A stretch of DNA of 53,654 bases, from contig JAFGHF010000025.1 of the NCBI GenBank assembly GCA_016939375.1, positions 1-53,654 of the forward strand, in the 5' to 3' direction. Of this stretch, positions 15,402 to 31,790 are shown one piece after another. The translations under genes and the position numbers were made by a program. The DNA is from Candidatus Omnitrophota bacterium. Lineage in GTDB: Bacteria > Omnitrophota > Gorgyraeia > JAFGHF01. Positions within the stretch are counted from its first letter, which is position 1; each line of letters opens with the position of its first letter. The notes below the pieces were generated by a model. That model was not told the DNA's origin. It searched no databases and was given only the letters and a program-made list of their open reading frames with translations.

Positions 15402-15986
15402 TTAAGAGGTCGGGCTACCGGCGGTTTCTCTTCTAGGCCTTCGCTGTCCTTCGGGATTCTTAGGAGCTGGCGCTACAAGATTGACGCCCTCTGCTCCCAG
15501 CGCACCAATCGTTACCGGGCTATAGGCCTCAGCGACTGCGGCAGATAGCTCAGGAATGTTCAGCAAGGCGATTATATCATCGTTAGACATGGTATCACAA
15601 TTATACCCACCTTCCGAACTCATATAATCGTTCTGCATAAGGTACTCTAGCTTCTCTTCTACGCTTGCTTCATTCGGTCCCATTATCGCGTCATAAAGCA
15701 CATCGGCTAGGTCGCAACGGTTAACAATCTCATCAAGTTTGCTATCCGCAAAAATCGTCACTCCCGCTTCGGTCAGCATGTTTGCTTGGACCTCAAAAAG
15801 CTCGGCATCCGCAAGTTCATCAGAACCCTCAGGCATCTCTATTCCTAAGGTCCTCACCAGGATATCAGCGAGTTGAGCAAAACTCATATTCTGCTCTCCT
15901 TCTGCCTCCTGGCACATGGCCTCGCCTGCGACCAAGCACATGCTCAATAGTAAAACCGCTACCCAGGCGTTTTTCATCTTTCTCAC
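15402..15986 (-). CDS. Secreted protein of unknown function, paralogue of the 31101-31631 product
   Basis: The 194-residue product has a signal peptide ending GEAMCQ. The mature part begins MSFAQLADILVRTLGIEMPEG. This matches MTYAQAATLLGRLLEIEMPAG in the protein at 31101-31631. Both continue with a second DLAxxLYDAIMG-like stretch and a VEEKLEYLMQNDYMS-like helix. The AQLADILVRTLG pattern resembles S-layer-homology helices, but I cannot assign that family firmly. The tail is basic and proline-rich. The first possible start is GTG; an ATG three codons later (15977) is equally plausible. A perfect promoter precedes it. Confidence 0.75.
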   Translation of the reverse strand: MRKMKNAWVAVLLLSMCLVAGEAMCQEAEGEQNMSFAQLADILVRTLGIEMPEGSDELADAELFEVQANMLTEAGVTIFADSKLDEIVNRCDLADVLYDAIMGPNEASVEEKLEYLMQNDYMSSEGGYNCDTMSNDDIIALLNIPELSAAVAEAYSPVTIGALGAEGVNLVAPAPKNPEGQRRPRRETAGSPTS

Positions 15987-16037
15987 CCTGTCTTTCCCTT
16001 TCTCCCCCTCGCTATACTATATTTAAAATGGAACCAC

Positions 16038-16066
16038 ATTATATCGCAAAAAGCCCTAAATGTCAA
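16038..16066 (-). promoter_or_regulatory. Perfect-consensus sigma-70 promoter
   Basis: The minus strand carries TTGACA, 17 bp, then TATAAT, a complete match to the consensus. It drives the secreted-protein gene at 15402-15986 with a leader of roughly 45 nt that contains GAGGGGGAGAAAGG, as in the paralogue's leader. Confidence 0.92.
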
Positions 16067-16078
16067 GCCATTTTATCT

Positions 16079-16657
16079 TCAATCTTCCAAATGAAATTCA
16101 ACATATTGGGCCAATAATTCTTTGATCTTTTCCGGTGGCAATATCAAGAAATAATGATCGATTATTGCATGGGCTATCTCATGGGCCAATACCTCTTCAG
16201 ATATCGCAGATTCAGTTGTGTAAATAGTGGTATATTTATGCACATAATATGAAATTCGCTGTTTTGAGCTAGGGCCAAACAACTGGTAATAACAGTCATC
16301 TAATTGTTGCTGGTCTTCATAGATCGCTACATTGATATGTATCTTGCGTGGAAACATATCTAAAATCTGCTGTACCCTTTCAAAGAGACGGTCGAACTTC
16401 TCGGCCAATTTTTGCTCCACTTCTTCCACTTTGACCTTATAATATTGCGGGTTAAAGTCAAAAAAAGTCAGATCTATCTTTCTGTTTATCTTTTTCAGGT
16501 CTACTTCGGGCCGATAGCGGATGGTACAATATTGCGACTCTATGTTCCTCCACTCTGGGGTCTCAAAGGCAAGAGCATCTTCAGCAGAGGCTTCTCCCGC
16601 AAAATGCAAACAAGCAAGTGTTATTAAATATATTATGTGAAATCCAAATCTTTTCAT
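16079..16657 (-). CDS. Secreted HEIAH-motif protein, putative metallopeptidase
   Basis: The 192-residue protein has a signal peptide (to about residue 25, EASA) and a motif LAHEIAHAIIDHY near residue 158. This has the HExxH form of zinc metallopeptidases. A third zinc ligand cannot be assigned; the protein ends only about 30 residues later, so the catalytic domain would be very short. It lies 4 nt after the HAMP protein in the exopolysaccharide cluster. Related small HExxH proteins occur beside polysaccharide genes in other bacteria, but the role here is inferred. Confidence 0.65.
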   Translation of the reverse strand: MKRFGFHIIYLITLACLHFAGEASAEDALAFETPEWRNIESQYCTIRYRPEVDLKKINRKIDLTFFDFNPQYYKVKVEEVEQKLAEKFDRLFERVQQILDMFPRKIHINVAIYEDQQQLDDCYYQLFGPSSKQRISYYVHKYTTIYTTESAISEEVLAHEIAHAIIDHYFLILPPEKIKELLAQYVEFHLED

Positions 16658-16661
16658 CAGC

Positions 16662-17261
16662 CTATATCTTAAAATATCCTAACGCGCTATTCAGCGCTTC
16701 TTTTTTTTCGTCCAGTTTCGTCAGCGTCTCTTGTGCCTTTTCAGACAGAGCGCTTTCCCTGCCCAGCAGTCCCTTAAGGCTGTCTATCTGGGTACCCAGT
16801 TCCGTGGAATGTGTTTGTATCTTAGCTATATTACTCTGCAGGCTTTTGGACATTTCGTTTAGACAATCCGCCAATTTGGTCATTTCATCTGTCGAGCGCA
16901 ATTTTATCTTTAGGTTTAAATCCCCGGTTGCAATTTGCTGTGCACTCCTCTCTAGATTAAACAAAGGCCCGGCTATGCGATGCGACTGATACATCACCAC
17001 AAAAACAGTGGCTATGCTGACTAAGACGAGCGTTACTAGGCTTGAACCTATTAGACCAGGTAAGATATAATCCGCGGTAGAGACAATGGTCAGCCGGGAT
17101 TGTATAAAGGCAGTCGTCAGGGTGTCACCGGCGAAACGCAATAGCAAGATCCCCGAGATAACAGAACCCAAGAAAACCAAACCGCAGAACTTGATGATGA
17201 ATTTGCGTTGAAAATCCTTTTTTATAAAGTAATTTGTCCTTCTGTTTTTTTGATTTGACAT
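16662..17261 (-). CDS. HAMP-domain membrane protein without output domain
   Basis: The 199-residue protein has two membrane segments (about 26-44 and 69-92) flanking a very short extracytoplasmic loop, then a HAMP linker (YQSHRIAGPLFNLERSA through EMTKLADCLNEMS). A coiled coil runs to the end. No kinase or methyl-accepting domain follows, so it is a truncated receptor layout. It begins with NYFIKKDFQRKFIIKF. A role in sensing or organising the export machinery is inference. A GGAGG ribosome site is present. Confidence 0.8.
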   Translation of the reverse strand: MSNQKNRRTNYFIKKDFQRKFIIKFCGLVFLGSVISGILLLRFAGDTLTTAFIQSRLTIVSTADYILPGLIGSSLVTLVLVSIATVFVVMYQSHRIAGPLFNLERSAQQIATGDLNLKIKLRSTDEMTKLADCLNEMSKSLQSNIAKIQTHSTELGTQIDSLKGLLGRESALSEKAQETLTKLDEKKEALNSALGYFKI

Positions 17262-17273
17262 GGCAATGCCTCC

Positions 17274-17741
17274 TTATTTCTTTTCCAAATCTGATAAGAC
17301 ACGCTTATAAACCTTTACATCCGCCTTTTTATAGATTTTATCCAAATTCTCATCTAAGGTCTTATTTCTTAAATCCGCGGGCACTCCACTAGCGAAAACC
17401 TGTTCGTTTTCCTCGCGCAGCAGCTCTCTGATCAGGGTCTGTTCCCAGTAGCGCTCAATGGTTTTCATGAAGCTACTCTTAAGATGCAGGCCTTGCCTTT
17501 GCGCTTCCTGGATCAAGATCTGCTTTTTTACCGCCAGATCGAGTATTTCCTCTAAATTTTGCGCGTTTTTAGCTGCATAAGGAGCGTTTTCGATCTCCTC
17601 TTTTAGGTCTGCGACGGTCATGACAAAATCGTTCACCTTGGCTACGACCTGCTTGTCATCTGGTTTTTTCCCACACCCCAGACCTATGCAGCATAAGCAT
17701 ACAAGCATTATTACCGGTAGCACAAACTTTTTCTTTATCAT
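17274..17741 (-). CDS. SurA-N-like lipoprotein (EpsD-type)
   Basis: The 155-residue product has a lipoprotein signal with lipobox LGC (residues 21-23) followed by GKKPDD. The mature part (VVAKVNDFVMTVADLKEEI ... LDLAVKKQILIQEAQRQGL) matches the SurA/PpiC N-terminal chaperone fold, but the parvulin isomerase domain is absent. Similar proteins sit in exopolysaccharide clusters and are called EpsD. It is 12 nt before the HAMP gene. A chaperone-like role in the periplasm is inferred. Confidence 0.72.
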   Translation of the reverse strand: MIKKKFVLPVIMLVCLCCIGLGCGKKPDDKQVVAKVNDFVMTVADLKEEIENAPYAAKNAQNLEEILDLAVKKQILIQEAQRQGLHLKSSFMKTIERYWEQTLIRELLREENEQVFASGVPADLRNKTLDENLDKIYKKADVKVYKRVLSDLEKK

Positions 17742-17775
17742 CAGATACCCCCCTATTTATCATATATTTTATTTA

Positions 17776-17804
17776 ATCTTACACTATCCAAACAGATTTG
17801 TCCA
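17776..17804 (-). promoter_or_regulatory. Possible promoter of the EpsD-like gene
   Basis: On the minus strand TGGACA and TAAGAT are separated by 17 bp. The match is weaker than that of the other promoters in the window, but the 72-nt spacer has no other clear candidate. Confidence 0.4.
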
Positions 17805-17813
17805 CTTAAAAGC

Positions 17814-19262
17814 TTAACTTGCCCCCACCCCGAGCATTACCACGGGAATAGTCTTCATCAAGATCTTGAAATCCAACCATAAAGACCAGTTATCTATATA
17901 TTTCAGGTCTAGCTCGACCCATTGCTCAAAGCTGATCTTGTTTCTGCCATTGACCTGCCATAGACATGTCAAGCCCGGACGCAAGCTCAGGCGTCTTGCC
18001 TGCCAATGTTCATACCTATTCACCTCAGAAGGTAAAGGCGGACGCGGGCCGACGATACTCATCTGGCCCAACAAAACGTTAAATAATTGCGGCAGTTCGT
18101 CGATACTGCTGCGCCTTAAAAACTTACCTAACGGTGTGATTCTGGGGTCGCTTTTAATTTTAAAAACCGGTCCGTCCATCTCATTGAGATGTTCCAGTTT
18201 GCTCAATTCCTTCTCGGCATCTGAATACATGGTGCGGAATTTAAATAAAGTGAATATCCGGCCATTGACACCTAACCTTTTTTGCTTAAAAAGCACAGGG
18301 CCACGAGAGGTGATTTTGACTAAGATGCCTGTCAGCACCAAAAGTGGGCTAAGGAACAGCAGGCCCATAAATGATGAAAATAAATCAAATGTGCGTTTAG
18401 CTAATAACTGCCATTCCTGGCCAAAAGTAGTCTCAAAGCTCAGCAAAGGAAAACCATTTAAGTCTGTTTGCTGGGCCCTGGCCACTTTCAGTTCGAATAG
18501 GTCCGCGGCTACGCTGGTACGTACGCCTTGTGTCTCACAAGCAGCAATGGTCTCCTGTATCCGGTCCAACCACATCCGCGGCACTACAAAAACGACCTCA
18601 TCAATGACATTTTCCCTTAAAATTTTTGGTACATTAGCAAGTACACCAATCACCTTTATGCCGAAAAAATCCTTACCCACTTTATCCGGTTCATCATCGA
18701 TTAAGCCCGTGATCCTTAGACCCCATTCGCCGTGCCCCTGGACCATCCTTACAAAACGTTTTGCCCGCGGGCCAGTCCCTACCACTAAAATACTACGGAA
18801 GTTATAACCTTTTTTTCGCAGATAGCGGGAGGCTGAGACCAAAGTCCATTTCTCCAATATCAGCAAACCTGTGCACAGCACCATGAAGATAATAAAGAAA
18901 ACCCTGCTCACAAATTGAATCTTAAATACGAAAGCCAAACTGCCAAAAGCAAGAATACTAAAGAAGGCGGCCTTGATTATCTCCCAGGTAATTTCCAAGA
19001 AGTTACGTGTGCGAAAAGGACGATATAATCCGTTAAAACTTAACATCAATACCCAAAGCGGCACACAGACAATAAGCACAATCAGATATAACTGAAAACT
19101 CACAGGAGAGCTCATTACTTTGATTGAAGGGATCAAATCGAGTTTATAGAACGCGCGAAAATGCAGACGCAAAAAGTAGGCGCTGATAAAAGCCAAAGCT
19201 ACCACCGCGCCATCCAAAAGCATCATACCATGCCTAACCAGCTTTTCTTTTTCCTTTAACAT
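17814..19262 (-). CDS. Polyprenyl glycosylphosphotransferase (exopolysaccharide initiating enzyme)
   Basis: This enzyme transfers a sugar-1-phosphate to undecaprenyl phosphate, starting the polysaccharide repeat unit. I place the start at the ATG at 19260-19262 (MLKEKEKLVRHG), with GAGGGAA upstream, giving 482 residues. A longer frame to 19523 only overlaps the upstream gene. It has four N-terminal membrane segments, a Rossmann-like CoA-binding middle (LVVGTGPRAKRFV), and a C-terminal bacterial sugar transferase domain (KRTFDLF, FKFRTMY, KFLRRSSIDELPQLFNVL, GPRPPLPSEV). This is the WbaP/EpsE layout. It overlaps the O-antigen-ligase-like gene by 7 nt. Confidence 0.93.
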   Translation of the reverse strand: MLKEKEKLVRHGMMLLDGAVVALAFISAYFLRLHFRAFYKLDLIPSIKVMSSPVSFQLYLIVLIVCVPLWVLMLSFNGLYRPFRTRNFLEITWEIIKAAFFSILAFGSLAFVFKIQFVSRVFFIIFMVLCTGLLILEKWTLVSASRYLRKKGYNFRSILVVGTGPRAKRFVRMVQGHGEWGLRITGLIDDEPDKVGKDFFGIKVIGVLANVPKILRENVIDEVVFVVPRMWLDRIQETIAACETQGVRTSVAADLFELKVARAQQTDLNGFPLLSFETTFGQEWQLLAKRTFDLFSSFMGLLFLSPLLVLTGILVKITSRGPVLFKQKRLGVNGRIFTLFKFRTMYSDAEKELSKLEHLNEMDGPVFKIKSDPRITPLGKFLRRSSIDELPQLFNVLLGQMSIVGPRPPLPSEVNRYEHWQARRLSLRPGLTCLWQVNGRNKISFEQWVELDLKYIDNWSLWLDFKILMKTIPVVMLGVGAS

Positions 19263-20512
19263 GACTGTTCCCTCGCTTTTCCTTTGTTTGCCCCCCGCAT
19301 AATAATCCCAGCGTAAAAAGCCACAACCAACATGTTCGCGGTTATATGAAAATTGAAGTCTACTAAACCATGAATTGCTAAACTTAATATTCCTATACCT
19401 GCGCCTAGTACTATACCTTGTTTCAGTCCAAATTCCCTCTTTCTGTCTAGGGCTTCTCCGATCACCACGCAAAAAACCCACAGTACTAAAGGCAATGCCA
19501 TTATGCCCATCTCTGCCATCCATTGAAGATAATCGTTGTGGGCGTAATGAGCTCGTACTCCCATAAGCCCCTCTGGGCGGTATTTGGGTAGCCCCCAGAC
19601 AAAAGTACCTATCCCGGTGCCCTTTAGCGGGTTGGATTTGATCATATTAACAGTGCCTAGCCATATTTTTTGACGCACCTCGGAAAAATACTGCTCGTTG
19701 ATTTTTTTCACTGTCCTAAGGCGCTCGGCTATATCATCGTGTCCTCCATAAATGTAAGCCACCGCCAATATTAGGATCAAGGCGAAAATGAAAATACTTT
19801 CTTTTTTGAGAATCTTTCTTTTTACAAGCAGCAAGTTCATAATAAACAGGGAGATAGTCAGGCTCAACCAAGCTCCCCTGGACTGCGAGAACACAAAAGC
19901 CGCTAAAAGTATTACTATCGACAGGCCTAGGCCAATTTGCCAAAGTCTGACTTTAAAGCGCGTATAATTTGTGTTTTTAAGCGCAATGGCCACTGCGATT
20001 GCCATCGGTATCGCTAGTTCCAGATAGCCCGCAAAGTGGTTATGATTGACATAGGTAGCGGCAAGCATATCTTGCGGTTTCCACCAAGAATGGTCTAAGC
20101 CAAAAAAGTACTGGCCTAATCCCAATAAAGACATAGCCGTAGCCACAATTATCACTAGAACCGCTAATTTAACCGTCATCTGTCTGTCAAAGTTATTTAC
20201 TGCCAGATAAAATACAGCCATCATGGCTGATAAACGCAAGAGCTCATAAAAACTGCCATATTTATAAATACTGAACATTGCTGAAATGATACACAGGGCC
20301 AGAAACAACCAGATCGGAGTATCTAGCGGAGTTTTTCTAAATTCAAGGTTATAGTTGTTTACCCTCCAAAGCCAAGTAAAAATAAGCGTAAAAACTAACA
20401 GCTCAATCACAGACACAGACCAAACCTGGACAGCCGCTTTTGCCAAAGGGGCAAAAACCATTACAGCGCCAAATCCCAAGAGCAATATATTTTTGTAGAC
20501 TTTTTCAGTCAT
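19256..20512 (-). CDS. O-antigen ligase / polymerase-like membrane protein
   Basis: This is a polytopic protein with about 12 membrane segments and a large periplasmic loop. The loop carries RAHYAHNDYLQWMAEMGI, which fits the H...Q...E.G pattern of the Wzy_C/WaaL family. Such proteins join or polymerise polysaccharide units at the periplasmic face. I favour the start MTEKVYKN at 20512, which overlaps the TPR gene by 8 nt. A start at 20527 (MGYGG) is possible; the frame extends to 20602 but that part lies in the upstream gene. Confidence 0.85.
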   Translation of the reverse strand: MTEKVYKNILLLGFGAVMVFAPLAKAAVQVWSVSVIELLVFTLIFTWLWRVNNYNLEFRKTPLDTPIWLFLALCIISAMFSIYKYGSFYELLRLSAMMAVFYLAVNNFDRQMTVKLAVLVIIVATAMSLLGLGQYFFGLDHSWWKPQDMLAATYVNHNHFAGYLELAIPMAIAVAIALKNTNYTRFKVRLWQIGLGLSIVILLAAFVFSQSRGAWLSLTISLFIMNLLLVKRKILKKESIFIFALILILAVAYIYGGHDDIAERLRTVKKINEQYFSEVRQKIWLGTVNMIKSNPLKGTGIGTFVWGLPKYRPEGLMGVRAHYAHNDYLQWMAEMGIMALPLVLWVFCVVIGEALDRKREFGLKQGIVLGAGIGILSLAIHGLVDFNFHITANMLVVAFYAGIIMRGANKGKAREQSC

Positions 20513-21665
20513 TCCACCATATCCCATATGGAGTCGCCTTTGCTTCTCCGATATAAAGATTTCTGTCCGTGTCCTGATTTGAATCTCCACCGTCGTTCGC
20601 AAAGGTAACGCTTAAGACCTTTAGACCACCACTCGAATTTATTTTAAAGTGGTATTCCCGCCATTCAGGTTTATCGACAAACGTCTCGCCTATCTCTTCT
20701 CCATCCAACTCTACGACCATATATGGCCAGATATCAGCGGCCGATTCCCCTTTTGCCCTGATTATGATTATGGATCTGTGGGCAGGTATGTCCAGTACTT
20801 TATGCATGGTTCCGGACCAATACATCTCACCATCTTCGTAAACATTGCCATTTCGCGATGTCCCCACCCAGTCGAGTTCATCTCCCAATGATTTCTTAAA
20901 CCGTAGCCATTGCAATAGTTCTCTTTCCTCTTTTCTGTGTTGGCTAAACGCCTTAAAGTCCTCTTTCTCCCTGTAAAAATCGACCATATTTTGTTGAGCC
21001 CTTCTATACTGCCAAAGGTTATTTTCCTCTATGAGAGAATATAGTTGTTCATGTGCCTTAAGGCTTCTCGGTGTCACTTGTTGCGCTAATTTAAAATCCT
21101 TGGCAAAATATATTATTGTAGGATAGATATTATTTTTATAATTTTCACCAGAACTTAATATAAACCCCAACCTATCTTTGGCAAAGCTTTTCTCTGCCTC
21201 GCTTAGAGATCTCCAGACCTTGAGCAAATTGTAGGCGATAAGATAGTTATTGCGGAAATTATATGGATCTTTCTCTAGGGCTAACTTAAAATCATCAAGA
21301 GCTTCTTCTCTTTTGCCTAGCTCCAAACACACCTCTCCCAACATGTACCTGTATTCGGCATGTTCCGGATTCAGTTTGCAGGCACGTTGGAATAGTTCTT
21401 CCGCCTCTTTTAGCCATATTTCTTTTTCTTTGTGTTGTCTACTTGCTCGCAAGCTAAATTCGGCGGACTGGGCAAAATACTGTGCGTTGAACGGGTTTAA
21501 GCGTAGCGTGGATTGATATTTTTCTTTCGCTTTTTTGAAGCGGTAGTTCGATTCCAATTTTTTTGCTTTATCCAGCTGGCGTTCGGCCGTCCACAGCAAA
21601 GCTACAGCGCCATTTAAAAAAATAAAAACCGTAATTATAATCATATTTATTATGTGGCGTTTCAT
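20505..21665 (-). CDS. TPR protein with C-terminal carbohydrate-binding-like domain
   Basis: The 386-residue protein has an N-terminal membrane anchor (residues 5-25), TPR repeats from about 28 to 160 (AKEKYQSTLRLNPFNAQY, LFQRACKLNPEHAEYRYMLG, ALDDFKLALEKDPYN), a helical linker, and a beta-rich end (about 285-380). The end contains YMVVELDGEEIGETFVD and VTFANDGGDSNQDTDRNL. That pattern resembles calcium-dependent xylan-binding modules (CBM60-like). Placed between an O-antigen-ligase-like protein and a glycosyltransferase, it could hold the polymer or organise its assembly. Confidence 0.72.
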   Translation of the reverse strand: MKRHIINMIIITVFIFLNGAVALLWTAERQLDKAKKLESNYRFKKAKEKYQSTLRLNPFNAQYFAQSAEFSLRASRQHKEKEIWLKEAEELFQRACKLNPEHAEYRYMLGEVCLELGKREEALDDFKLALEKDPYNFRNNYLIAYNLLKVWRSLSEAEKSFAKDRLGFILSSGENYKNNIYPTIIYFAKDFKLAQQVTPRSLKAHEQLYSLIEENNLWQYRRAQQNMVDFYREKEDFKAFSQHRKEERELLQWLRFKKSLGDELDWVGTSRNGNVYEDGEMYWSGTMHKVLDIPAHRSIIIIRAKGESAADIWPYMVVELDGEEIGETFVDKPEWREYHFKINSSGGLKVLSVTFANDGGDSNQDTDRNLYIGEAKATPYGIWWND

Positions 21666-22420
21666 CTAAAAAACCTTTGCCTGATTACCAACCAGAAAAA
21701 GCTCATGTCGGTGATTAAGTATCTTTTCCAAAGACGCTTCGGCTCAAGTGATAGGCGCCAGAACCACTCTAGCCCTGCTTTCTGCATCCACAATGGAGCC
21801 CGTTTTATCTTTCCGGAAGCAAATTCAAAACTCGCCCCTATGCCTATTGACAAAGGCACCTTGTATTCTCCTTTATGCTCAAAAATCCATTTTTCCTGTT
21901 TAGGAGCGCCTAAACCCACAAATAAAATATCTGCTTTTGATTCCTTAATCATCTCGACTATCTTTTGGTTTTCGCTCGGGCTACTCTCAAAATCAAAAGG
22001 AGGAGAGTAAACGCCGACGATATTGATTTTAGGATGTTTCATTTTTAAGACTTCGGCGGACCTCGAAGCCGAACCCTCACTCCCCCCCAAAAAGAACAAT
22101 CTATATCCTTTCGCCGCTGCAATCTCGCAAAGCCTGGGAAAAAGATCGGAACCGGATATTTTTCCTTTAAGCGGTGTGCCCAAAAACCTCGCTGCCCATA
22201 ATAAAGGAACCCCGTCTGCGATGACCAGGTCGGCATTTCTGTATATGTCTCTGAACTGAGGGTTTTTCTGCAAACAAACTATATGATCGACATTGGGCGT
22301 AACTACATAAGCTTGCCGGCCTTTTAGGATAAAAGAGTGGATATTAATTAGAAGTTCCTCAAAAGTAATATTATTGATCTCTATCCCACAGATATTGACA
22401 GGTGTTCTTTTCATAAACAT
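21662..22420 (-). CDS. WecG/TagA/CpsF-family glycosyltransferase
   Basis: GT26 enzymes add a sugar, often N-acetylmannosamine, to a lipid-linked acceptor. The 252-residue protein has VTPNVDHIVCLQKNPQF, DLVIADGVPLLWAARFLG, GYRLFFLGGSEG, and the C-terminal VGLGAPKQEKWI and GIGASFEFASGK, all typical of the family. It overlaps the TPR gene by 4 nt and follows the CDP-alcohol phosphatidyltransferase by 2 nt. It is probably the second step of repeat-unit assembly; the sugar is unknown. Confidence 0.92.
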   Translation of the reverse strand: MFMKRTPVNICGIEINNITFEELLINIHSFILKGRQAYVVTPNVDHIVCLQKNPQFRDIYRNADLVIADGVPLLWAARFLGTPLKGKISGSDLFPRLCEIAAAKGYRLFFLGGSEGSASRSAEVLKMKHPKINIVGVYSPPFDFESSPSENQKIVEMIKESKADILFVGLGAPKQEKWIFEHKGEYKVPLSIGIGASFEFASGKIKRAPLWMQKAGLEWFWRLSLEPKRLWKRYLITDMSFFWLVIRQRFFR

Positions 22421-22422
22421 GT

Positions 22423-23088
22423 TTATTTACCCAACTTTTTATACGCAATGGGGGCGGTTACTAAGTAGATCAACGATACAAAGACAATTGTCTCTGTGAT
22501 AAATCCCGAAAGCGGTCCTAAGACCAAAATAAAGAAAGCCTCGTCTTGAGGTGAAAAAATATCATAGATCCTGCCTATTCCAAATAAGGCCGGCCGTTTC
22601 TGCTGCGGGATATCGATCAATGCATCGTTAGCGGCGGAGCGCTTGATCTTGAATAAGTAATGGTAGACAATGTGTATTCCGTAATGCAAGCCGAATATAA
22701 CCGCCATTCCTAAAAGCAATTGCCCCTGTTTAAAATAGTATCCATATATTATGCCCAAAAGCGGAAATAATTTGTTTATTTTATCTATAGAAATATCTAG
22801 TTTCGCACCCAATTCGGAGATCTGCCCGGTCATCCTGGCGACCTTGCCGTCTGTCTTATCAAGCAGACAAGAGAGGTAGTAGAAAAGGCTTCCTCCGGGA
22901 AAAAATCCTCCAGCAAAGCAAGCTGTGGCGACAATCATGAAAATGAGGCTTGAGAGCGTTATCATATTCGGCCGGATCCATCTTAATCTGGAAAAAAATA
23001 CAGCCAGGGGAATGGCTATTGGTTCGATAAAATATATGGTGGTCCAATAAGTTTTCGCTTTCACCCCTTTTAAGACTTTATTATTCAT
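22423..23088 (-). CDS. CDP-alcohol phosphatidyltransferase family protein
   Basis: Members transfer a phosphate-linked group from a CDP-alcohol to an acceptor alcohol within the membrane. The full signature D-x2-DG-x2-AR-x8-G-x3-D-x3-D is present as DKTDGKVAR...G..LD..ID at about residues 77-102. The 221-residue protein has about five membrane segments. In a polysaccharide cluster it may make a phosphodiester-linked precursor or modification rather than a bulk phospholipid. The substrate cannot be read from sequence. Confidence 0.88.
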   Translation of the reverse strand: MNNKVLKGVKAKTYWTTIYFIEPIAIPLAVFFSRLRWIRPNMITLSSLIFMIVATACFAGGFFPGGSLFYYLSCLLDKTDGKVARMTGQISELGAKLDISIDKINKLFPLLGIIYGYYFKQGQLLLGMAVIFGLHYGIHIVYHYLFKIKRSAANDALIDIPQQKRPALFGIGRIYDIFSPQDEAFFILVLGPLSGFITETIVFVSLIYLVTAPIAYKKLGK

Positions 23089-24236: not shown

Positions 24237-25684
24237 AATTGAACCCATGTTCTTTTTTCCGTCTCCAGCAAAGAGCAGGCTATTCCTAACGTTGCAAAAA
24301 TGAAAAAGTTTTGAGGAGCTTTCAGGAGCGTTTGGCTGGCAATCGTCTCCACAATTGCCTCCGTCAGTATCATAAGGGAACCCAGAGCAAAGGCTCTCAG
24401 AAACATATCATTTATGGTTTTAAAGACTCTTACAACGCTCTTGATAATAGAAAACAGGATCCAGACATAACAAACACAGCCAAAAAAACCAAATTGGGCT
24501 ATAATGTAGGGCCAGAAAGTATCGGTTATAAAACGGCCTCCTTTTTGCAATCCATAAACGGTACTTATTCCGTATTGACTATACAATGGACTATAATATA
24601 GGGAAGATATCCACCCTGCAAAGGTACCAAGCCCTGAACCAAACGGGAAAAAATCTTTGGCGATACGCAGGCTCGTAGCATAGAGGACGTTCCTCGCTTG
24701 TCGAGAAAGGTCAGGTGCGCGCAGGTAACTATAAATTTTGTCTTCGAAAAGCATATTCACCTTATCGCCAAAAATGCTGGCTAGCAGTAAAATGATCAAG
24801 CCGGCCACGAATAGAAAGCGCACTTTTTTTGCACCGGGAGTCAGCATCAATGCCGCAAATATGGCGGCCGCTAGACCCAAAACCGGCTTAAGCCTCATTG
24901 AGAAAAGCAGCCCTAGGCTAAAACAAATGCTCAAAAAGAGACTACCTTTCCCTCTTAAGATTATGAAGAAGGCAAGTGTAAAACAGGCGCAAAAAGCCAT
25001 GAACCAGCCGAATACTCCGGGATGGACAAAAACCGATTGAATAGCTGGTATGCCGAAACGGTAATCGATAAATAGCTTATTATTGATTAAATTCCTAAAG
25101 CCTGCCGGGGCCAATAAATCTACAACACCGAACAATAGCACTAACACCGAAATACCAAAAAAGACTTTAGATATTTTTACGACATCCTCTTTTTTAAAGG
25201 GGAAATCGTAAAATATATAAAAAATTAAAAAGCTTTTCAACAATATAAAAAGGTCGAAAGACGCAACTTTATAAGCAACTATATTATTTGCAAACGAGCT
25301 TATGGCCGCAATAACGACTAGTAAAATCAGCGGTAAATCTATAGAGCTTTTTTTCCATTTTTCACCCAGAGCTGCCTTCCTAAGAACGGTTGTAGAAAAT
25401 AGCATCAGCAGTATTGCCTCTTCCGCCCTTTTCAACATTACCTCCCAAAGGCTTCCCTGGCTGAATTGCAAAGCTATTAGGTCTTGAAAAAGCAAAAAAA
25501 CGGCTAGAAAAAACAAAGTAAACTTAGGAAATTTTAAATATATGGCTAAAAAAGTTATAAGTCCCGCCATTGCAAAGATCGCCTGAGCCGGCAAATAAAG
25601 TACGGCCAATGCCGCAGTAGCAGCGGCAAAGAGCAATAGGACGGTATTATTTATTCCGATATTTATTGTGAGGCTTTTTATCAT
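24233..25684 (-). CDS. Polysaccharide polymerase-like membrane protein
   Basis: The 483-residue protein is almost wholly hydrophobic, with about 11-12 membrane segments and a periplasmic loop (about residues 310-390) containing RIAKDFFPFGSGLGTFAGW. The GxGxGTF pattern before the last segments is seen in O-antigen ligase/polymerase (Wzy-like) proteins. With the other ligase-like gene at 19256-20512 the cluster has two, one perhaps polymerase and one ligase. It overlaps the flippase gene by 4 nt. Confidence 0.8.
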   Translation of the reverse strand: MIKSLTINIGINNTVLLLFAAATAALAVLYLPAQAIFAMAGLITFLAIYLKFPKFTLFFLAVFLLFQDLIALQFSQGSLWEVMLKRAEEAILLMLFSTTVLRKAALGEKWKKSSIDLPLILLVVIAAISSFANNIVAYKVASFDLFILLKSFLIFYIFYDFPFKKEDVVKISKVFFGISVLVLLFGVVDLLAPAGFRNLINNKLFIDYRFGIPAIQSVFVHPGVFGWFMAFCACFTLAFFIILRGKGSLFLSICFSLGLLFSMRLKPVLGLAAAIFAALMLTPGAKKVRFLFVAGLIILLLASIFGDKVNMLFEDKIYSYLRAPDLSRQARNVLYATSLRIAKDFFPFGSGLGTFAGWISSLYYSPLYSQYGISTVYGLQKGGRFITDTFWPYIIAQFGFFGCVCYVWILFSIIKSVVRVFKTINDMFLRAFALGSLMILTEAIVETIASQTLLKAPQNFFIFATLGIACSLLETEKRTWVQL

Positions 25685-27039
25685 GTTAGCTCTTTTCTCA
25701 CGCTTATTTTAAATTGCAAGTAAAGAAACAAAAGACTGGCTGCGTTAACAAGGCTGGTTGCAAAGGCAATGCCTGCTACAGCGAAAAAACGCATCAGCAA
25801 TATATTGAGGAAGATATTCGAGATCGTGGATAAAAATGCCCCCTTCATTATTGCTTTCGTGTTTTTCAGGACCAAAAGCGCCCTGATTACGATCTGGTTC
25901 GAGAGAGAGAAAGTGATGCCCACTAAATAGCACAAAAATGTCGCTTTCACTAAAACTAACATCTCTAAAGGAAATTCTCCTCTGCCATAGGCAATATTTA
26001 CTATCTGTCTAGCAAAAAACGATAGAAATACTGTCAGGCTTATTGTTACTAAAGAGACGATGCCGATGGCTTTGTGCATGTCTCTTTTGAGCACTTGCGT
26101 TTTTTTATTGCGATAATATTTTTCGCTCCAGTGGCTTAATACAGCCACAATCAAGCCGGAGGCGATAAAGTTCACAGGTATAAAGTAAAGTCTATCGGCG
26201 TATTGAAGCACAGAAACACTACCGGTTGTAAGCCAGGAGGCCATAATCTTATCGACAACAGGATTTAAACCGATTGCGACCAGGCCAAACATTTGAAAAG
26301 ACAGAGTTTTAAAAAAGTTTATAATCGTACGGTCGAAAACAAAGTTTATTCGTAAAGAAATCAGTTTTTTTCTTGTTAAGACATAGCCAAATACTATCAG
26401 CCTTAAGAGTTCCCCCAGTATGTAGCCTACTACTATAGCGTGTATTCCTATTTTTTGACGCAGGGCGAATATCGTTGCTATACAGACAATGGCTCGAATG
26501 CCGGGAGAGACGGCTGGAAGCCAAAACTTAAAATACGCGTTCAAGACCCCGATCAAAATACTGGAACAGACGACTAATATCAAAAAGGGCGAAATCTCTA
26601 AAAATAGTTGCAATAACAGCTGAAAGGATCCTTCGGGGAAACGAGTAATCAAACTTAGCAAAGGCCTTGCCAAAAGCAAAAAGATGCAGACCAAAATAAT
26701 CATTGCCAAGAACGACAACAATAGCAGTTTGGTTATAAAATCGGGTATTTTTTTCTCAGCTTTTTGTCTTAGATCGGCGATAAAGGGGACAATATTGCTC
26801 TCCAGAGACCTGGAAAATACACCGGTAAGATAAATAACGATTCCATAAACAAAGAAAAAGATATCTGTTTTTACGCTCACCCCATACCAAGCGGCAATAA
26901 AAAAGGGTATCAAAATACCTATTCCCTTGCCGATTACATTCCAAATGGTAGTCGTAAAAGCATCCTTTACTAAAGGGCGGGCATAAAATTTTCGCCAAAT
27001 ACCAATCATATTAGGTGGCTTGGCATTTAGAGATTTCAT
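25681..27039 (-). CDS. MurJ/Wzx-like lipid-linked oligosaccharide flippase
   Basis: The 452-residue protein has about 12-14 membrane segments and MviN/MurJ-type features: KDAFTTTIWNVIGKGIG near the N-terminus, RSLESNIVPFIADLR, and YADRLYFIPVNFIASGLIVAVL in the middle. In this cluster it most likely flips the undecaprenyl-linked repeat unit across the inner membrane (Wzx role), not lipid II. It overlaps the HTH gene and the polymerase gene by 4 nt each. Confidence 0.85.
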   Translation of the reverse strand: MKSLNAKPPNMIGIWRKFYARPLVKDAFTTTIWNVIGKGIGILIPFFIAAWYGVSVKTDIFFFVYGIVIYLTGVFSRSLESNIVPFIADLRQKAEKKIPDFITKLLLLSFLAMIILVCIFLLLARPLLSLITRFPEGSFQLLLQLFLEISPFLILVVCSSILIGVLNAYFKFWLPAVSPGIRAIVCIATIFALRQKIGIHAIVVGYILGELLRLIVFGYVLTRKKLISLRINFVFDRTIINFFKTLSFQMFGLVAIGLNPVVDKIMASWLTTGSVSVLQYADRLYFIPVNFIASGLIVAVLSHWSEKYYRNKKTQVLKRDMHKAIGIVSLVTISLTVFLSFFARQIVNIAYGRGEFPLEMLVLVKATFLCYLVGITFSLSNQIVIRALLVLKNTKAIMKGAFLSTISNIFLNILLMRFFAVAGIAFATSLVNAASLLFLYLQFKISVRKELT

Positions 27040-27221
27040 TCGGGCCTATACCTCCGCCTTATATAGTTATCTATTTCCTGTGAAGGTATCCGGTAACCGC
27101 CACGCCGCCCTTCCTTATAAGCGGCTATCTTCTTGTTCCTTATAAGAGAACGCAGATATTCTTCGCTTATCCTTAAAATATCCGCAGCCTCTTTGGTCAG
27201 AAGCAGCTTCTTGTAGTCCAT
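27036..27221 (-). CDS. Small helix-turn-helix protein, excisionase/MerR-like
   Basis: The 61-residue protein is a single DNA-binding fold: LLLTKEAADILRISEEYLRSLIRNKKIAAYKEG then GYRIPSQEIDNYIRRR, the layout of HTH_17/excisionase-type domains. The ATG at 27219-27221 has a full AGGAGGG site 7 nt upstream, so I prefer it to a TTG two codons earlier. It is embedded in the exopolysaccharide operon, overlapping the flippase gene by 4 nt. A role as a local regulator is inference; no recombinase is nearby. Confidence 0.8.
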   Translation of the reverse strand: MDYKKLLLTKEAADILRISEEYLRSLIRNKKIAAYKEGRRGGYRIPSQEIDNYIRRRYRPE

Positions 27222-27307
27222 AATCAATCCCTCCTAAATACCATTTAATGTTTTTTATTGCAATGTACAAAGACACAAAAAAAGTCCCTTTAAGACCTGT
27301 TTTTGAA

Positions 27308-28969
27308 CTATTTTTTACTGGCGTAATAATAATGGTAATAATTGTATTCCTGTCCCCGGGATAGCTTGACTTTATTAAACAAGGTGCCTACTACCCTGGC
27401 GCGGGCCTTTTTTAGTAGTTGCTCGACCCTGGGAAGAGCCCTTCTGCTTGTTTTTTCAACCTCTATTACTAAGACAACGCCGTCGACTGCCCGTGAAAGA
27501 ATGCAGGCGTCTGTGACAACCGCGATCGGCGGGGAATCAAATATGACGAAATCAAAATTTTCCTTTGCTGTATTTATAAACTCGGCCATCTTATGGCTGG
27601 AGAGAAGCTCTGAAGGGTTAGGTGGATGTGGTCCTCCGCTTACTAAAGAGAGATTTTTGATTTCAGGCTTTTGTATTACCTCTTCAAAACCGGCCTGTTC
27701 AGAAAGAAAGTTGCTTAAGCCGATTTTATTGCTAATTTTAAATATTTCGTGCAATCTGGGCTTGCGCATATCGGCATCCACCAAAAGGACCTTGTTTTTA
27801 CTCTGGGCCATCGCTATCCCCAGATTGCAAAGCGTAGTTGTCTTCCCCTCTTGCGGACCAGCGCTGGTGATAACAATAGACTTTAAATGGTGCTCCTCTG
27901 TCGAAGAAAAGAGAATACCTGTGCGGATGGCACGATAGTTTTCGGTTATCGGGTCATCGGGCTGTTTGTGGGCAAAAAGGTCTTTTTGAGCATCATCCAT
28001 CCTTTTCTTTTCATCAATGAGGGGCATATTTCCCAAAAACGGCCAATCGGCTATCTTTTCTACGTCTTCTAAGCCCTTTACCGTATCGTCAAGATATTCG
28101 AAGAAAAAGGCCATCCCCGTACCGCCAAAGAAACCCACCAATATTGCCAAGACTATGTTCAGTCGTTTTTTCGGCTTTATTGGTAAAACCGGTGCTTCTG
28201 CCCGGTCCTGAATAGATATGTTGTTGGCTTTTAGTCCGGTTAGGTCGGAAATAAGGTTTCCGTTATTGACTTCGACAAAAGAGGCATCAGCGACGTCATA
28301 GCCGGCTACGCGCTCCTTCTCCTGTTTGATCCTCTGCGCCACCTGCTCTATCTCTTGATTAAGCCTTATCATCTTAGGATGCATGTGCTTATAGACCTTA
28401 GAATACTCAGAAAGCCTGGCCTGCAGCTTTAAGTATTCGTTTTTTAACAAGTTAATTACTTCGCTTTTTGCGATATAAGCAAGGTTACGGGCTACATAAA
28501 GTTCCGCTATTCGGTTGGCCATCTCGGCAGCGAGTTTTGGGTCTTCATTATCTACTTGTAATAGAAATAGCCTTGTGTCTCGCACAGTTTCAACTCTTAT
28601 GTCCTTAAGAAACTTATCTATAGGATCCTTGGTTTTGCTATATTTATCAATACGGCCTAAGTCGAATTCTTCAAAAACTTCTTTGGCGATGCTACGGCTC
28701 CTGACAATCTCTTTCTGACTTTGGAAATATTCCTTATACGTATAATAGTTGGAGTTCTCCAAAGCGACAGAGCCCGAAGCGGTAAGCACATTGGGGCTTT
28801 CCAGGTCAACAAGTATAGTTGCAGTAGCTCGATAGACCGGCTGCATCAAAAAGCTACCTGTGGTTACCACAGTCACAGTCACTAAGAAAAAGATGAGCAG
28901 AACATTCTTCCTTCTTTTGATTATTTTCAAGTAATCACTCAGATGGGCCTCTTTTACATAATCAGCCAT
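27308..28969 (-). CDS. Wzz/BY-kinase polysaccharide co-polymerase and tyrosine kinase
   Basis: This inner-membrane protein controls chain length and export by cycles of tyrosine phosphorylation. The N-terminal Wzz domain has membrane segments at about 22-44 and 272-292, with a periplasmic helix-rich part between. The cytoplasmic kinase has Walker A (GPQEGKTTT, 371-379), Walker A' (LLVDADMRKP, 395-404) and Walker B (FVIFDSPP, 474-481). The tail holds a tyrosine cluster (YNYYHYYY) of the kind that is autophosphorylated. It lies 13 nt after the wza-like gene. Confidence 0.94.
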   Translation of the reverse strand: MADYVKEAHLSDYLKIIKRRKNVLLIFFLVTVTVVTTGSFLMQPVYRATATILVDLESPNVLTASGSVALENSNYYTYKEYFQSQKEIVRSRSIAKEVFEEFDLGRIDKYSKTKDPIDKFLKDIRVETVRDTRLFLLQVDNEDPKLAAEMANRIAELYVARNLAYIAKSEVINLLKNEYLKLQARLSEYSKVYKHMHPKMIRLNQEIEQVAQRIKQEKERVAGYDVADASFVEVNNGNLISDLTGLKANNISIQDRAEAPVLPIKPKKRLNIVLAILVGFFGGTGMAFFFEYLDDTVKGLEDVEKIADWPFLGNMPLIDEKKRMDDAQKDLFAHKQPDDPITENYRAIRTGILFSSTEEHHLKSIVITSAGPQEGKTTTLCNLGIAMAQSKNKVLLVDADMRKPRLHEIFKISNKIGLSNFLSEQAGFEEVIQKPEIKNLSLVSGGPHPPNPSELLSSHKMAEFINTAKENFDFVIFDSPPIAVVTDACILSRAVDGVVLVIEVEKTSRRALPRVEQLLKKARARVVGTLFNKVKLSRGQEYNYYHYYYASKK

Positions 28970-28982
28970 TTAAGAGCCTCCT

Positions 28983-29570
28983 TTAAAAGAAGCTTTCGGG
29001 GACGAAAACGATATCCCCTGGTTTAAGCGGTATGTCCTTTTCTTTCATCCCCTTCTTGGTAATATCGGATATTTTGATGGGAATGGTTAACTCTTCGTTG
29101 TTTTCTTTGCGTATTATCTTTGTTCCGTTGGCATCGGCTATATTGGTAAAGCCGCCGGCCATGGCAATAGCTTCTAAAACCGTAGTCTCTCTTTCTGTAT
29201 ACATATCGTATTTACCGGGTTTTTGAACCTCACCAAGCACGGATACCTGTTTAATATGGTATTGTTCGATGAAAACCTGCACTTGAGGATTGACCAGGTA
29301 GTCTTTTTCAAGAAGCTGTTCAATCTTGTCTTTCAACTCACTAACAGTTAGGTCGGCGACGTCAAGTTTGCCTAAAAGCGGGAAGGAAATTTCACCAGTG
29401 GAGCCAATCCTAGTCCTTGTTTCCAGATCAGGCTGTTCGTAGACTGTTATATACAGGACGTCTTCGGGTTGCAGGCGATAACCGGGTTCCTGCGCCTGCG
29501 CGTTCATAAAGATCCCAGCGCATACAATAGATGACACAAAAATCATTAAGGACTTTTTAAAAGTTCCCAC
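28983..29570 (-). CDS. Wza-type polysaccharide export protein
   Basis: The 195-residue protein has a signal peptide (ending AQAQ), a polysaccharide export domain (YRLQPEDVLYITVYEQPDLETR through LGKLDVADLTVSELKDKI) and a SLBB domain (QVSVLGEVQKPGKYDMYTERETTVLEAIAMAGGF). It ends in LKPGDIVFVPESFF. Wza-type proteins form the outer-membrane or periplasmic export channel. It is half the length of E. coli Wza, as in the two-domain EpsA type, and has no lipobox cysteine. Confidence 0.93.
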   Translation of the reverse strand: MGTFKKSLMIFVSSIVCAGIFMNAQAQEPGYRLQPEDVLYITVYEQPDLETRTRIGSTGEISFPLLGKLDVADLTVSELKDKIEQLLEKDYLVNPQVQVFIEQYHIKQVSVLGEVQKPGKYDMYTERETTVLEAIAMAGGFTNIADANGTKIIRKENNEELTIPIKISDITKKGMKEKDIPLKPGDIVFVPESFF

Positions 29571-29591
29571 TTTTTTCTACTCCTTTAAATT

Positions 29592-29633
29592 GAAAACCAC
29601 TGAAGAAATTTCTTCTACCCCTCCAGTGGTTTC
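29592..29633 (-). terminator. Hairpin between the barrel gene and wza
   Basis: On the minus strand GAAACCACTG and CAGTGGTTTTC form a stem, with a palindromic GAAGAAATTTCTTC inside the loop. The T-run after it is short (TTTTCAATTT), so it may be a partial terminator that sets a lower level for the genes behind the abundant barrel gene. Confidence 0.6.
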
Positions 29634-29659
29634 GATTTAGGTTTTAGTTAAGGTTTTGG

Positions 29660-30946
29660 TTAAAAAGTGCCGGTTATGCTCGCGTTTATGCGGCTATTTT
29701 CGTAGTCATAAATAGAAAAGTTGGAATCTCTTGTGCGGAATTGATATTTCAGCTCGGCTACAAAATTCTTGGGAAATACGTACGTTATTCCCGCTCCGTA
29801 AGACCAAAAATCATCTTCCCTGTTGTCGGTCTGGTCGCCTTCGGTAGTTTCGATTGGATAATAGTTTAGCTGATATGACATCCCGATGTGACCAAAGAGC
29901 CTTTCAGTAAAGCCATGCTTGTATCCGGCACCTATATAAGTGCTTTCGAAATAAACATTGTCAGTATAAATCGTATCATTAGTGGTCCTCTTTAAGTCCA
30001 GACGCAAAGAATCGCGGGGTGTGAAATTCTCGATAATACTGCCGTCAAAGACAACGCTGGAGAAATCCTCAAAATCGTCATAATCCTGGTCGCGGTAGCC
30101 GATCCTTGCCTCCGCTACGCATTTAGCGGTAGGTTGTCCCCGAAGTCCCACTAAGAAGTCAAAATAATCGGAATCATTTTTATTGCCGGTATCATGGTCG
30201 ATCGTGCCATAATCCATGGTCAAAAGCAAGGCTGTCTTTTTCCAAAGTTTCAGCGCTGCCTCCACAGCACCTTCATTTTCCACACGGTCCAGGTCATTAT
30301 AGGTTAGAGGCACTCCATTTAAAGGCCCGATTGCATCATCAGAACGATAGTCTTCGTATCTATTCTCATAGCCCAAAGTCAAATCAAGCTTATTGAACAT
30401 AAATGTAAGATTTCCCTGGCCCAGATTTTGGGTACGGTCTATCCGGTTGGTATCCTCACTGCCAGATTGCTCTGAAAAGTAACTAAACCTATCATATAGA
30501 TCAATGCGTGCTTTTTTGGTTATGTCTAATTTGCCCGCTATGTTTGCCAGATGATTAAAATTATTCTGGTCGTCATAATCTGCATAGAAGTTCAGGTCCG
30601 CTAGATAGTCAAAGTAAAAGCCATGCTTTTTGAGACGCGGTTCGAACCTAAACCCCGGGTTGACGGTTGTTATCCAGTCATCCCTTTTGTCATCGTCTGT
30701 AAGGAATATATTATCATCGTACATTTGGCGCACAGAGATAAAGGGACTAAAGACGGGCTTTTCATCGGGAGTGTCATAAGGATGATAAATAGGCTGAAAC
30801 CAGTTATCGCTCTCGGGCGTGTATGGGAAGTAAAAAGGCTCAAAAACATTTTCTTCTTGCCCTTCTTCTTGAGCAAACACATCCCAGGCAAAAAACAAGG
30901 CTGTCCCCAGGCAAGCTACTATCAACATAACAGACAATTTTTTCAT
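29660..30946 (-). CDS. Outer-membrane beta-barrel protein (BBP2-like)
   Basis: The 428-residue protein has a signal peptide (ending VFAQ), an acidic proline/tyrosine-rich linker, then VFSPFISVRQMYDDNIFLTDDDKRDDWITTV, which matches the start of putative beta-barrel porin-2 proteins found with exopolysaccharide export. Alternating aromatic strands follow, and it ends in a terminal phenylalanine (ASITGTF), the signal for barrel insertion. It is the first gene of the long cluster and is probably the outer-membrane port or partner of Wza. Confidence 0.85.
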   Translation of the reverse strand: MKKLSVMLIVACLGTALFFAWDVFAQEEGQEENVFEPFYFPYTPESDNWFQPIYHPYDTPDEKPVFSPFISVRQMYDDNIFLTDDDKRDDWITTVNPGFRFEPRLKKHGFYFDYLADLNFYADYDDQNNFNHLANIAGKLDITKKARIDLYDRFSYFSEQSGSEDTNRIDRTQNLGQGNLTFMFNKLDLTLGYENRYEDYRSDDAIGPLNGVPLTYNDLDRVENEGAVEAALKLWKKTALLLTMDYGTIDHDTGNKNDSDYFDFLVGLRGQPTAKCVAEARIGYRDQDYDDFEDFSSVVFDGSIIENFTPRDSLRLDLKRTTNDTIYTDNVYFESTYIGAGYKHGFTERLFGHIGMSYQLNYYPIETTEGDQTDNREDDFWSYGAGITYVFPKNFVAELKYQFRTRDSNFSIYDYENSRINASITGTF

Positions 30947-31023
30947 CGTTTTCCTCTTTTTTCGATAAAACGCCGCTATTATTCTCTTTGGCCCGGGGTT
31001 AAATTGTCTAAATTAACCCAAAT

Positions 31024-31053
31024 ATCATACCAGAGTAGATATTTAAATGTCAA
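31024..31053 (-). promoter_or_regulatory. Promoter of the exopolysaccharide operon
   Basis: On the minus strand TTGACA and TATGAT are 18 bp apart. The leader of about 70 nt begins with GGGTTAA and TTTAACCC, which can form a hairpin, then reaches the barrel gene. Confidence 0.82.
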
Positions 31054-31100
31054 GGGAATAGGTATTAATTAAGGCCGTCTCTTTGGGAGGGTCCTGCAGT

Positions 31101-31631
31101 CTATATCTTGTCCTCGTTAGAATGTTCTGGAGGGCCATAGGCTTTTAAAACCGCATTTGTAAGTCCGGGGATGCTAAAAACTCCTATTATCTCATTGTAG
31201 CTCAATTCCATATAACATTCTTCTCTAAAATCAGGGCTGATATAGCCCTTCTTTACCATAAAATCGATTTTTTCTTCGGTTGTGGCCCTGGTGTCTCCAA
31301 CCACAGCGTCATAAATGATATTTGCCAGGTCGGCCATGGTCACTTTTTCATCAGGCCTGAGGTCGCCTTCGAGTTTTATCCCGCGTTCGGCTAAACCCTC
31401 TGCGCGGATCTGGAACGCCTCAGTCCGGGAAAGCTTATGCGCGCCAGCGGGCATCTCTATTTCTAAAAGACGGCCCAGCAAAGTTGCGGCTTGGGCATAA
31501 GTCATTGGCCTGCCCTTTGCCTGGCATACCGGCATCCCGGCTGAAAAAACAAGAACCCCTACACACACACATAACACAACCGGCCAAACACTACCTTTAC
31601 TCATCTGCTTACTGACCTTTCTCCCCCTCAA
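31101..31631 (-). CDS. Secreted protein of unknown function, paralogue of the 15402-15986 product
   Basis: The 176-residue frame has a signal peptide ending PVCQA, then MTYAQAATLLGRLLEIEMPAG, DLANIIYDAVVG and TEEKIDFMVKKGYIS, each with a counterpart in the other paralogue. The frame opens with TTG; an ATG at codon 10 (31604, MSKGSVWPV) gives a more usual signal peptide and is probably the start. It precedes the exopolysaccharide operon, as its paralogue ends it. A very strong promoter and a leader of about 125 nt suggest high expression. An S-layer-like or matrix role is only a guess. Confidence 0.75.
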   Translation of the reverse strand: MRGRKVSKQMSKGSVWPVVLCVCVGVLVFSAGMPVCQAKGRPMTYAQAATLLGRLLEIEMPAGAHKLSRTEAFQIRAEGLAERGIKLEGDLRPDEKVTMADLANIIYDAVVGDTRATTEEKIDFMVKKGYISPDFREECYMELSYNEIIGVFSIPGLTNAVLKAYGPPEHSNEDKI

Positions 31632-31761
31632 TACACAATTACATTTCTAACAAAATGTTCGCTGAAGACCGAAGGATTCCGTGCAATATGATATGTGTTA
31701 GATACTTTTTAAAAAGTTTTAGTAAGATTCCAAAAAAATAATAAAATTTTACTAGGAGGGT

Positions 31762-31790
31762 ATTATAACAGACCCCATATTTGTTGTCAA
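31762..31790 (-). promoter_or_regulatory. Perfect-consensus sigma-70 promoter
   Basis: The minus strand reads TTGACA, 17 bp, TATAAT, with no mismatch. The long leader that follows holds two palindromes (TAGTAAAATTTTATTA-like and ACTTTTTAAAAAGT) and a GAGGGGGAGAAAGG stretch shared with the leader of the paralogue at 15402-15986. Confidence 0.92.

Follow-up and report, generated by a model that had tools for sequence, protein, structure and literature searches.

The window analyzed here, the 53,654-nucleotide stretch represented by contig JAFGHF010000025.1 of a Candidatus Omnitrophota bacterium (assembly GCA_016939375.1), contains an exopolysaccharide cluster flanked by two genes for small exported proteins, which we denote A (15402-15986, minus strand) and B (31101-31604, minus strand). 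These proteins belong to a family that is patchy in its distribution, cryptic at the sequence level, SLH-like and tied to polysaccharide export, and that has its C-terminal motif in common with proteins containing unrelated domains. The family is likely a secreted partner of a polysaccharide machine, with an SLH-type fold and a soluble C-terminal docking or sorting tag. With about even confidence, we propose more specifically that A and B are paralogous exported SLH-fold partners of a PEP-CTERM-type cluster without an exosortase and combine a glycan-binding domain with a C-terminal module that is docked or processed; we infer that A and B bind glycan and that the tail serves in docking or sorting.

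In the relatives, genes of this family occupy a "slot", defined here as the gene position following a triad of EpsD-like, HAMP-domain and HExxH metallopeptidase-like genes. Under the proposed mechanism, the slot protein would be exported, its SLH-like domain would bind glycan, either the own polymer of the cluster or peptidoglycan, and its C-terminal module would dock to, or be processed by, the export machinery, coupling polymer and cell surface. For the family as a whole, this module would consist of an E-A-Y-x-P box, a linker and the terminal [DE]-x-x-A-[ST]-x-x-COOH. A, the tail of which is off-consensus, would have stayed in the ancestral slot, and B would be a faster-evolving, tail-less copy left at the far end when the cluster was permuted (e.g., by tandem duplication and loss).

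The conserved slot of A and B

All genes of the cluster are encoded on the minus strand, and in the direction of transcription B opens the cluster and A closes it, with the order B, barrel, Wza, Wzc, further genes, TPR, Wzy, glycosyltransferase, EpsD-like, HAMP, HExxH, A. The first-pass annotation had described A and B as similar secreted proteins that bracket the cluster, and both statements hold: the two are paralogous (39% identity over 139 aa, E 1e-31), and the profile search for additional copies that it had suggested returned only A and B from this genome. In the tree, B has a long branch (1.21 against 0.48) and no firm place relative to A. By our reading, each protein has an apparent N-terminal signal peptide; an assignment as lipoproteins was rejected, a lipobox not being seen by eye in either.

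The search for relatives covered genomes of the same class, and most of the relatives found carry the label Candidatus Omnitrophota. With a profile built from A, B and one relative, 21 of 292 class genomes proved to contain the family; with a larger profile, it was 21 of 384. These whole-genome profile searches did find relatives, whereas a search with back-translated peptides found none. The complete order EpsD-like, HAMP, HExxH, X, barrel, Wza, Wzc, where X is an A/B-family slot protein, is present in four loci (L006, L042, L043, L044), and in the loci of the other relatives there is no barrel gene after the slot gene or the contig ends. The Omnitrophota relatives have one slot gene per locus. 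The two flanking copies in the window are the exception, and here the cluster is permuted, with each half of the ancestral neighborhood retaining one A/B copy, an arrangement that might have come about by tandem duplication with loss. Because the slot is conserved in the relatives, A and B are tied to the polysaccharide cluster, in agreement with the link drawn in the first-pass annotation.

The triad itself is far more widespread. The HExxH(x16)E family, which has no Pfam match over the cut-off, was identified in 129 of the 384 class genomes, nearly always beside EpsD-like and HAMP genes, and the triad extends to contigs labelled Desulfobacterota and Nitrospirota. In five loci of the Desulfobacterota type (L233, L240, L249, L254, L257), it faces Wzy, Wzc and Wza genes. 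These surveys were anchored on the protease gene, such that loci without a retained protease gene give no slot, and 11 protease places were not fetched.

Several loci show other genes around the slot. In L038, a gene that we read as WecG/TagA-like lies between the HExxH gene and X. In the loci of one taxonomic family (f19) that have no slot protein (L055, L057, L058, L061, L182), a sensor-like HAMP-domain protein of ~890 aa directly follows the triad. In L062, L076 and L088, the HExxH gene is followed by open reading frames (ORFs) that we read as PilB/GspE- and PilC/GspF-like, and a further role of the triad in pili or type II secretion is possible.

Predicted fold of A and its relatives

The AlphaFold2 model of A, built from 11 alignment rows, has a mean pLDDT of 78.3, with values >90 for most of residues 31-140, and the last 40 residues are disordered. 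The best four Foldseek rows for this model are SLH domains (E 0.014-0.18). In VIA-align, SLH-domain entries from two proteins, Sap and SpaA, fill the first 13 rows (Z 9.0-10.5, 111-124 residues aligned); row 14 is an S-layer cytochrome (Z 7.6), and the next unrelated row is at Z 5.6. A predicted three-part helical arrangement spans residues 22-152 of A. Judging from the resemblance of the model, A seems to possess a sequence-degenerate SLH-type fold. B is taken as SLH-like because it is 39% identical to the modelled A. The refuting outcome named in the first-pass annotation, structure predictions with unrelated folds, was not seen, although A was the one protein modelled and the fold of B follows from sequence identity only.

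Known members of the SLH domain family bind cell-wall polysaccharide, and the titles of the SpaA structures refer to the binding of pyruvylated ManNAc. A resembles the SLH domain (PF00395; SpaA of Paenibacillus alvei and Sap) in its predicted three-part helical arrangement and in being exported, and some relatives of A contain TRAE-like segments (LTREELA, by our reading). The A family differs in that it consists of small stand-alone proteins with a C-terminal tail and without a sequence-family match. A further comparison is with the outer-membrane tethers OmpM (PMC10628300) and SlpA, which likewise involve an SLH-type domain in a diderm near an outer-membrane barrel; in the window, the SLH-like domain and the barrel are encoded by separate genes.

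A number of observations weigh against this assignment and against the reading built on it. In the Foldseek search with the model of A, nothing was found at E 0.001 or better, and in VIA-align a Z below ~13 can reflect a common arrangement in the case of helical models. Pfam searches for SLH gave no match for A or B at E 0.1 and none for eight long relatives at E 10, and PF00395 was found in none of 39 genomes; sequence profiles reached the SLH domains of SpaA at E 0.12-0.37, with Cas9 chains at similar E. The family is absent from all four other searched genomes of the same taxonomic family. The pyruvyltransferase that would make the classical SLH ligand (PF04230) is absent from this genome and present in 1 of the 22 slot-protein genomes. 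Given the lack of a sequence-family match, we call the A family SLH-like and do not file it as SLH; a canonical SLH domain detectable by sequence was not supported, all the Pfam and PF00395 searches of A, B, the eight long relatives and the 39 genomes being without a match. The absence of PF04230 argues against the classical pyruvylated ligand for A and B, and this candidate was dropped as unsupported. If the structural assignment is correct, the phylum, with no SLH domain in 39 genomes by library search, may contain SLH-like proteins that sequence libraries do not reveal.

The domains joined to the slot are variable. In the taxonomic family f19, the slot protein is longer, at 475-500 aa, and its helical parts enclose two beta domains; in L047-L050, L052-L054 and L056 these beta domains are set between SLH-like helices. 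They resemble phage-baseplate proteins, both in sequence (NCBIfam TIGR02243, E 3e-15, below the cut-off) and in structure (P1 baseplate, Z 13.5, rmsd 1.7 over 97 residues). In L059, L060, L083 and L091, the same slot and tail belong to FecR-domain exported proteins (PF04773; LipL45-like), the domain of which is unlike that of A and B. Neither A nor B matches PF04773, and the single FecR match of this genome is located elsewhere (C20).

The C-terminal tail and its candidate readers

The tail was surveyed with a strict pattern, [DE]..A[ST].{0,3} at the C-terminus (in the family, [DE]-x-x-A-[ST]-x-x-COOH), among 938 non-overlapping ORFs of at least 100 aa from 136 loci, with the duplicates L111-L119 left out. 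The pattern was present in 16 ORFs, all of them slot proteins (first or second after the HExxH gene), and in none of the 922 non-slot ORFs, a comparison that is not blind because the pattern was shaped on X, at a time when some f19 and FecR tails were known as well. Eleven of the 16 belong to the X family and five are FecR-type, four of which match PF04773; the fifth (L059) has no Pfam family and is FecR-like by our reading. The tail is missing from one more FecR-type slot protein, the sixth (L098/L250). A looser form of the motif occurs in 25 of the 28 slot proteins read end to end, being absent in B, L041 and L250, and in 21 of the 28 the S/T lies exactly two residues from the C-terminus. 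The loose tail adjoins 19 of 28 polysaccharide-type triad loci compared to 5 of 102 others, where L048 and L056 were scored as non-polysaccharide only because the fetched stretches are short; 97 of 130 triad loci have neither polysaccharide labels nor a tail. A few unrelated ORFs, with L130, L133 and L148 among them, fit the loose motif too; in a set of 644 ORFs it had 29 matches, of which 16 were strict. In a second set of loci, the strict motif was found in 13 of 697 ORFs, with only three new proteins (L180, L204, L210) because many of the loci are on the same contigs as the earlier ones. A search for the tail in other proteins with a DNA pattern gave 32 matches in 18 genomes compared to 28 for the reversed control, and among 30 pattern loci read, three end real-looking ORFs of at least 50 aa (two slot proteins and one ribosomal-protein-like); this is a weak test, given that the pattern omits AGY serine codons and TGA stops, demands P-A and recovered only two known tails. 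In the open-licence literature, which leaves out subscription papers and preprints, we recognized no paper describing the tail or the family.

A and B themselves are the worst fit in the family, which counts against our proposal as well. A, which consists of a signal peptide, the SLH-like domain, a proline-containing linker and the tail ETAGSPTS (codons at 15405-15428, minus strand), has the loose motif only. B, the divergent paralog, retains an AYGPP box and ends in SNEDKI, without a tail. The tail reading thus concerns the family more than this genome. Past the TAG stop codon of B, the frame continues as TAGPSQRDGLN until the next stop (31065-31100, minus strand); as a lost tail this is unconvincing, TAG-P-S being only slightly similar to the tail of A, probably by chance.

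One alternative is that the tail is an inherited, functionless linker and that the SLH match reflects a generic helical arrangement. X and the long f19 family share the whole C-terminal region, and, as judged by eye, an E-A/P/T-Y box precedes the linker in X, in f19 and in several FecR-type proteins; furthermore, the Z values do not reach the range in which a match of a helical model is safe. The presence of the tail on FecR-type proteins, which have another domain, together with its absence from all 922 non-slot ORFs, speaks against inheritance, and the clear separation of the SLH rows from the remaining rows speaks against a generic match. We consider this explanation unlikely.

The composition of the tails, which are hydrophilic and Ala/Pro/Ser-rich with a nearly constant S or T, also brings to mind a glycan-attachment site, at which a Wzy_C-family enzyme of the cluster would link the polymer to the Ser/Thr, yielding a protein-linked polysaccharide. 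PilO/TfpO-type enzymes glycosylate pilins at a C-terminal Ser, and the cluster encodes two Wzy_C-like proteins, one over the cut-off and one just under it. However, the distance of the S/T to the free C-terminus is fixed in 21 of the 25 tails, for which an attachment site has no need, and no co-occurrence of an enzyme with the tail was detected; such attachment appears improbable. The fixed distance would fit recognition of the tail as a PDZ-type ligand, with [ST]-x-hydrophobic or a terminal Thr, by a protease or adaptor in the periplasm that regulates turnover. [ST]-x-hydrophobic is the C-terminal rule for class I PDZ domains, and I, V, L or T is the last residue of many tails. In several others this residue is Q, S or Y, conservation extends to the upstream A and acidic residues, and no PDZ protein was seen in the cluster, albeit with no search aimed at such proteins; we find the PDZ explanation quite doubtful.

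Similarly doubtful in our estimate is a role of the HExxH protein of the triad as the tail-processing protease. In the fetched loci, its gene is the nearest upstream neighbor of nearly all tail-bearing slot genes, but this adjacency is partly by design because the HExxH gene was used as the locus anchor. Moreover, the triad has a much broader distribution than the tail, as the above counts indicate (129/384 genomes; 97/130 loci without polysaccharide labels and tail), and A retains the HExxH gene yet has a weak tail.

For protein sorting tied to exopolysaccharide, the model in diderm bacteria is the PEP-CTERM/exosortase system, taken here as defined in PMC1569441. The window resembles the PEP-CTERM/exosortase (EpsH) system in that its cluster contains EpsD-, EpsE-, EpsF- and TIGR03016-like genes, and in that the exported slot protein has a conserved C-terminal motif resembling PEPA[ST]. 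The cluster genes match EpsD, EpsE/pepcterm_export, EpsF/pepcterm_TyrKin and TIGR03016 below the cut-offs and general polysaccharide families above them; their matches to XrtA/XrtB families (E 1e-6 to 1e-44) are all under the curated cut-offs. The differences are that the slot-protein tail has no transmembrane helix or basic cluster and ends two residues after A-S/T, and that a locus has about one tail protein, in place of the many found in a genome with PEP-CTERM. No PEP-CTERM family match was obtained for A, B or the proteins of L006, L044, L050 and L059. Exosortase (PF09721) was not found in this genome, which is 93% complete, and occurs in 1 of the 22 slot-protein genomes and 3 of 14 others, so that an exosortase was rejected as the tail reader for most genomes. 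As judged from sequence comparison, the window locus appears to work like the PEP-CTERM/exosortase system without being a member of it.

Another likeness comes from four Nitrospirota-labelled loci (L224, L229, L241, L256), in which the gene after the triad ends with VPEP, a hydrophobic stretch and a basic cluster; compared to TIGR02595, one of the four proteins is over the cut-off and two are sub-threshold. A PEP-CTERM-like protein is encoded in the post-triad position of these loci, which may or may not belong to polysaccharide clusters.

A broader generalization, which we offer tentatively and hold to be possible rather than probable, is that Omnitrophota employ an exosortase-independent soluble tag, [DE]-x-P-A-[ST]-x-x-COOH, PEP-CTERM-like but without a membrane anchor. 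It would be carried by one exported protein per polysaccharide locus, with interchangeable N-terminal domains (SLH-like, SLH-like with phage-baseplate-type beta domains, FecR), and a receptor within the polysaccharide machine would read it. If true, a PEP-like end motif without an anchor and mostly without an exosortase would represent another sorting solution, with one substrate per locus.

Promoters, leaders and neighboring genes

The first-pass annotation had assigned exact TTGACA-17-TATAAT promoters to both genes, and these are indeed the only two matches to TTGACA-N15..19-TATAAT in the window (A, 16038-16066; B, 31762-31790; both minus strand, spacers of 17), with 0.02 expected in the shuffled window. 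In the whole genome (1,743,987 bases, 76 contigs), there are eight exact 17-spaced sites, including these two, and none for the reversed-pattern control. Three of the others precede ORFs that we read as a Fur-type regulator, RecA and an Rrf2-type regulator, one precedes a 456-aa exported-looking ORF, one is inside an ORF ahead of a tRNA cluster, and one has no ORF within 128 bases downstream. Since exact promoters also precede regulators and RecA, the strong promoters of A and B do not establish the abundance of the products that the same annotation had expected. Strong promoters characterize the slot. Within 200 nt upstream, a site with at least 10 of the 12 consensus bases is present for 17 of the 23 slot genes (15 of 21 without A and B), compared to 84 of the 293 other genes that have 80 nt of free upstream DNA (Mann-Whitney p 6e-6, an optimistic value because related genes are not independent).

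The two genes also share the leader stretch GAGGGGGAGAAAGG (A, 15997-16010; B, 31616-31629; both minus strand), as reported before, with no other exact copy in the genome. It is located ~12-20 nt 5' of the likely ATG codons (15977 and 31604) and is the longest common stretch among 1275 pairs of 60-nt gene leaders, the runner-up being 13 nt. Given that the 14-mer is the best by one base only and lies just 5' of the start codons, we treat it as a conserved ribosome-binding region; taken alone, its sharing offers weak evidence. A special regulatory site was rejected, the stretch being absent elsewhere in the genome and unconserved in the relatives by eye, with a runner-up of 13 nt. A might start at GTG 15986 or ATG 15977; for B, the gene-caller start (TTG 31631) overlaps the leader, and ATG 31604 is likelier. 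The untranslated leaders are ~50-60 nt for A and ~150 nt for B, and a structured RNA in the latter was rejected (z -0.10; no Rfam match in 13000-34000). A promoter-like TTGACA-18-TATGAT, read by eye, lies between B and the barrel gene (31024-31053, minus strand).

The remaining cluster genes are likewise on the minus strand. Next to A are the triad genes, namely the exported-looking HExxH...E metallopeptidase-like protein (16079-16657), the HAMP-domain membrane protein (16662-17261) and the SurA-N/EpsD-like protein (17274-17741; EpsD 26.9 bits, below the cut-off of 108.9). Next to B are the outer-membrane barrel BBP2_2 (29660-30946; TIGR03016-like, 78.1 bits, below the cut-off of 90.85), the Wza/EpsE-like polysaccharide export protein (28983-29570) and the Wzc-like chain-length/tyrosine autokinase protein (27308-28969). 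Between these groups are encoded a polyprenyl glycosylphosphotransferase (17814-19523; TIGR03025 over the cut-off), a Wzy_C/O-antigen ligase family protein (19256-20602), a TPR protein with a C-terminal CBM60 match (20505-21665) and a glycosyltransferase of the WecG/TagA/CpsF family (21662-22420; over the cut-off), possibly a ManNAc-type transferase.

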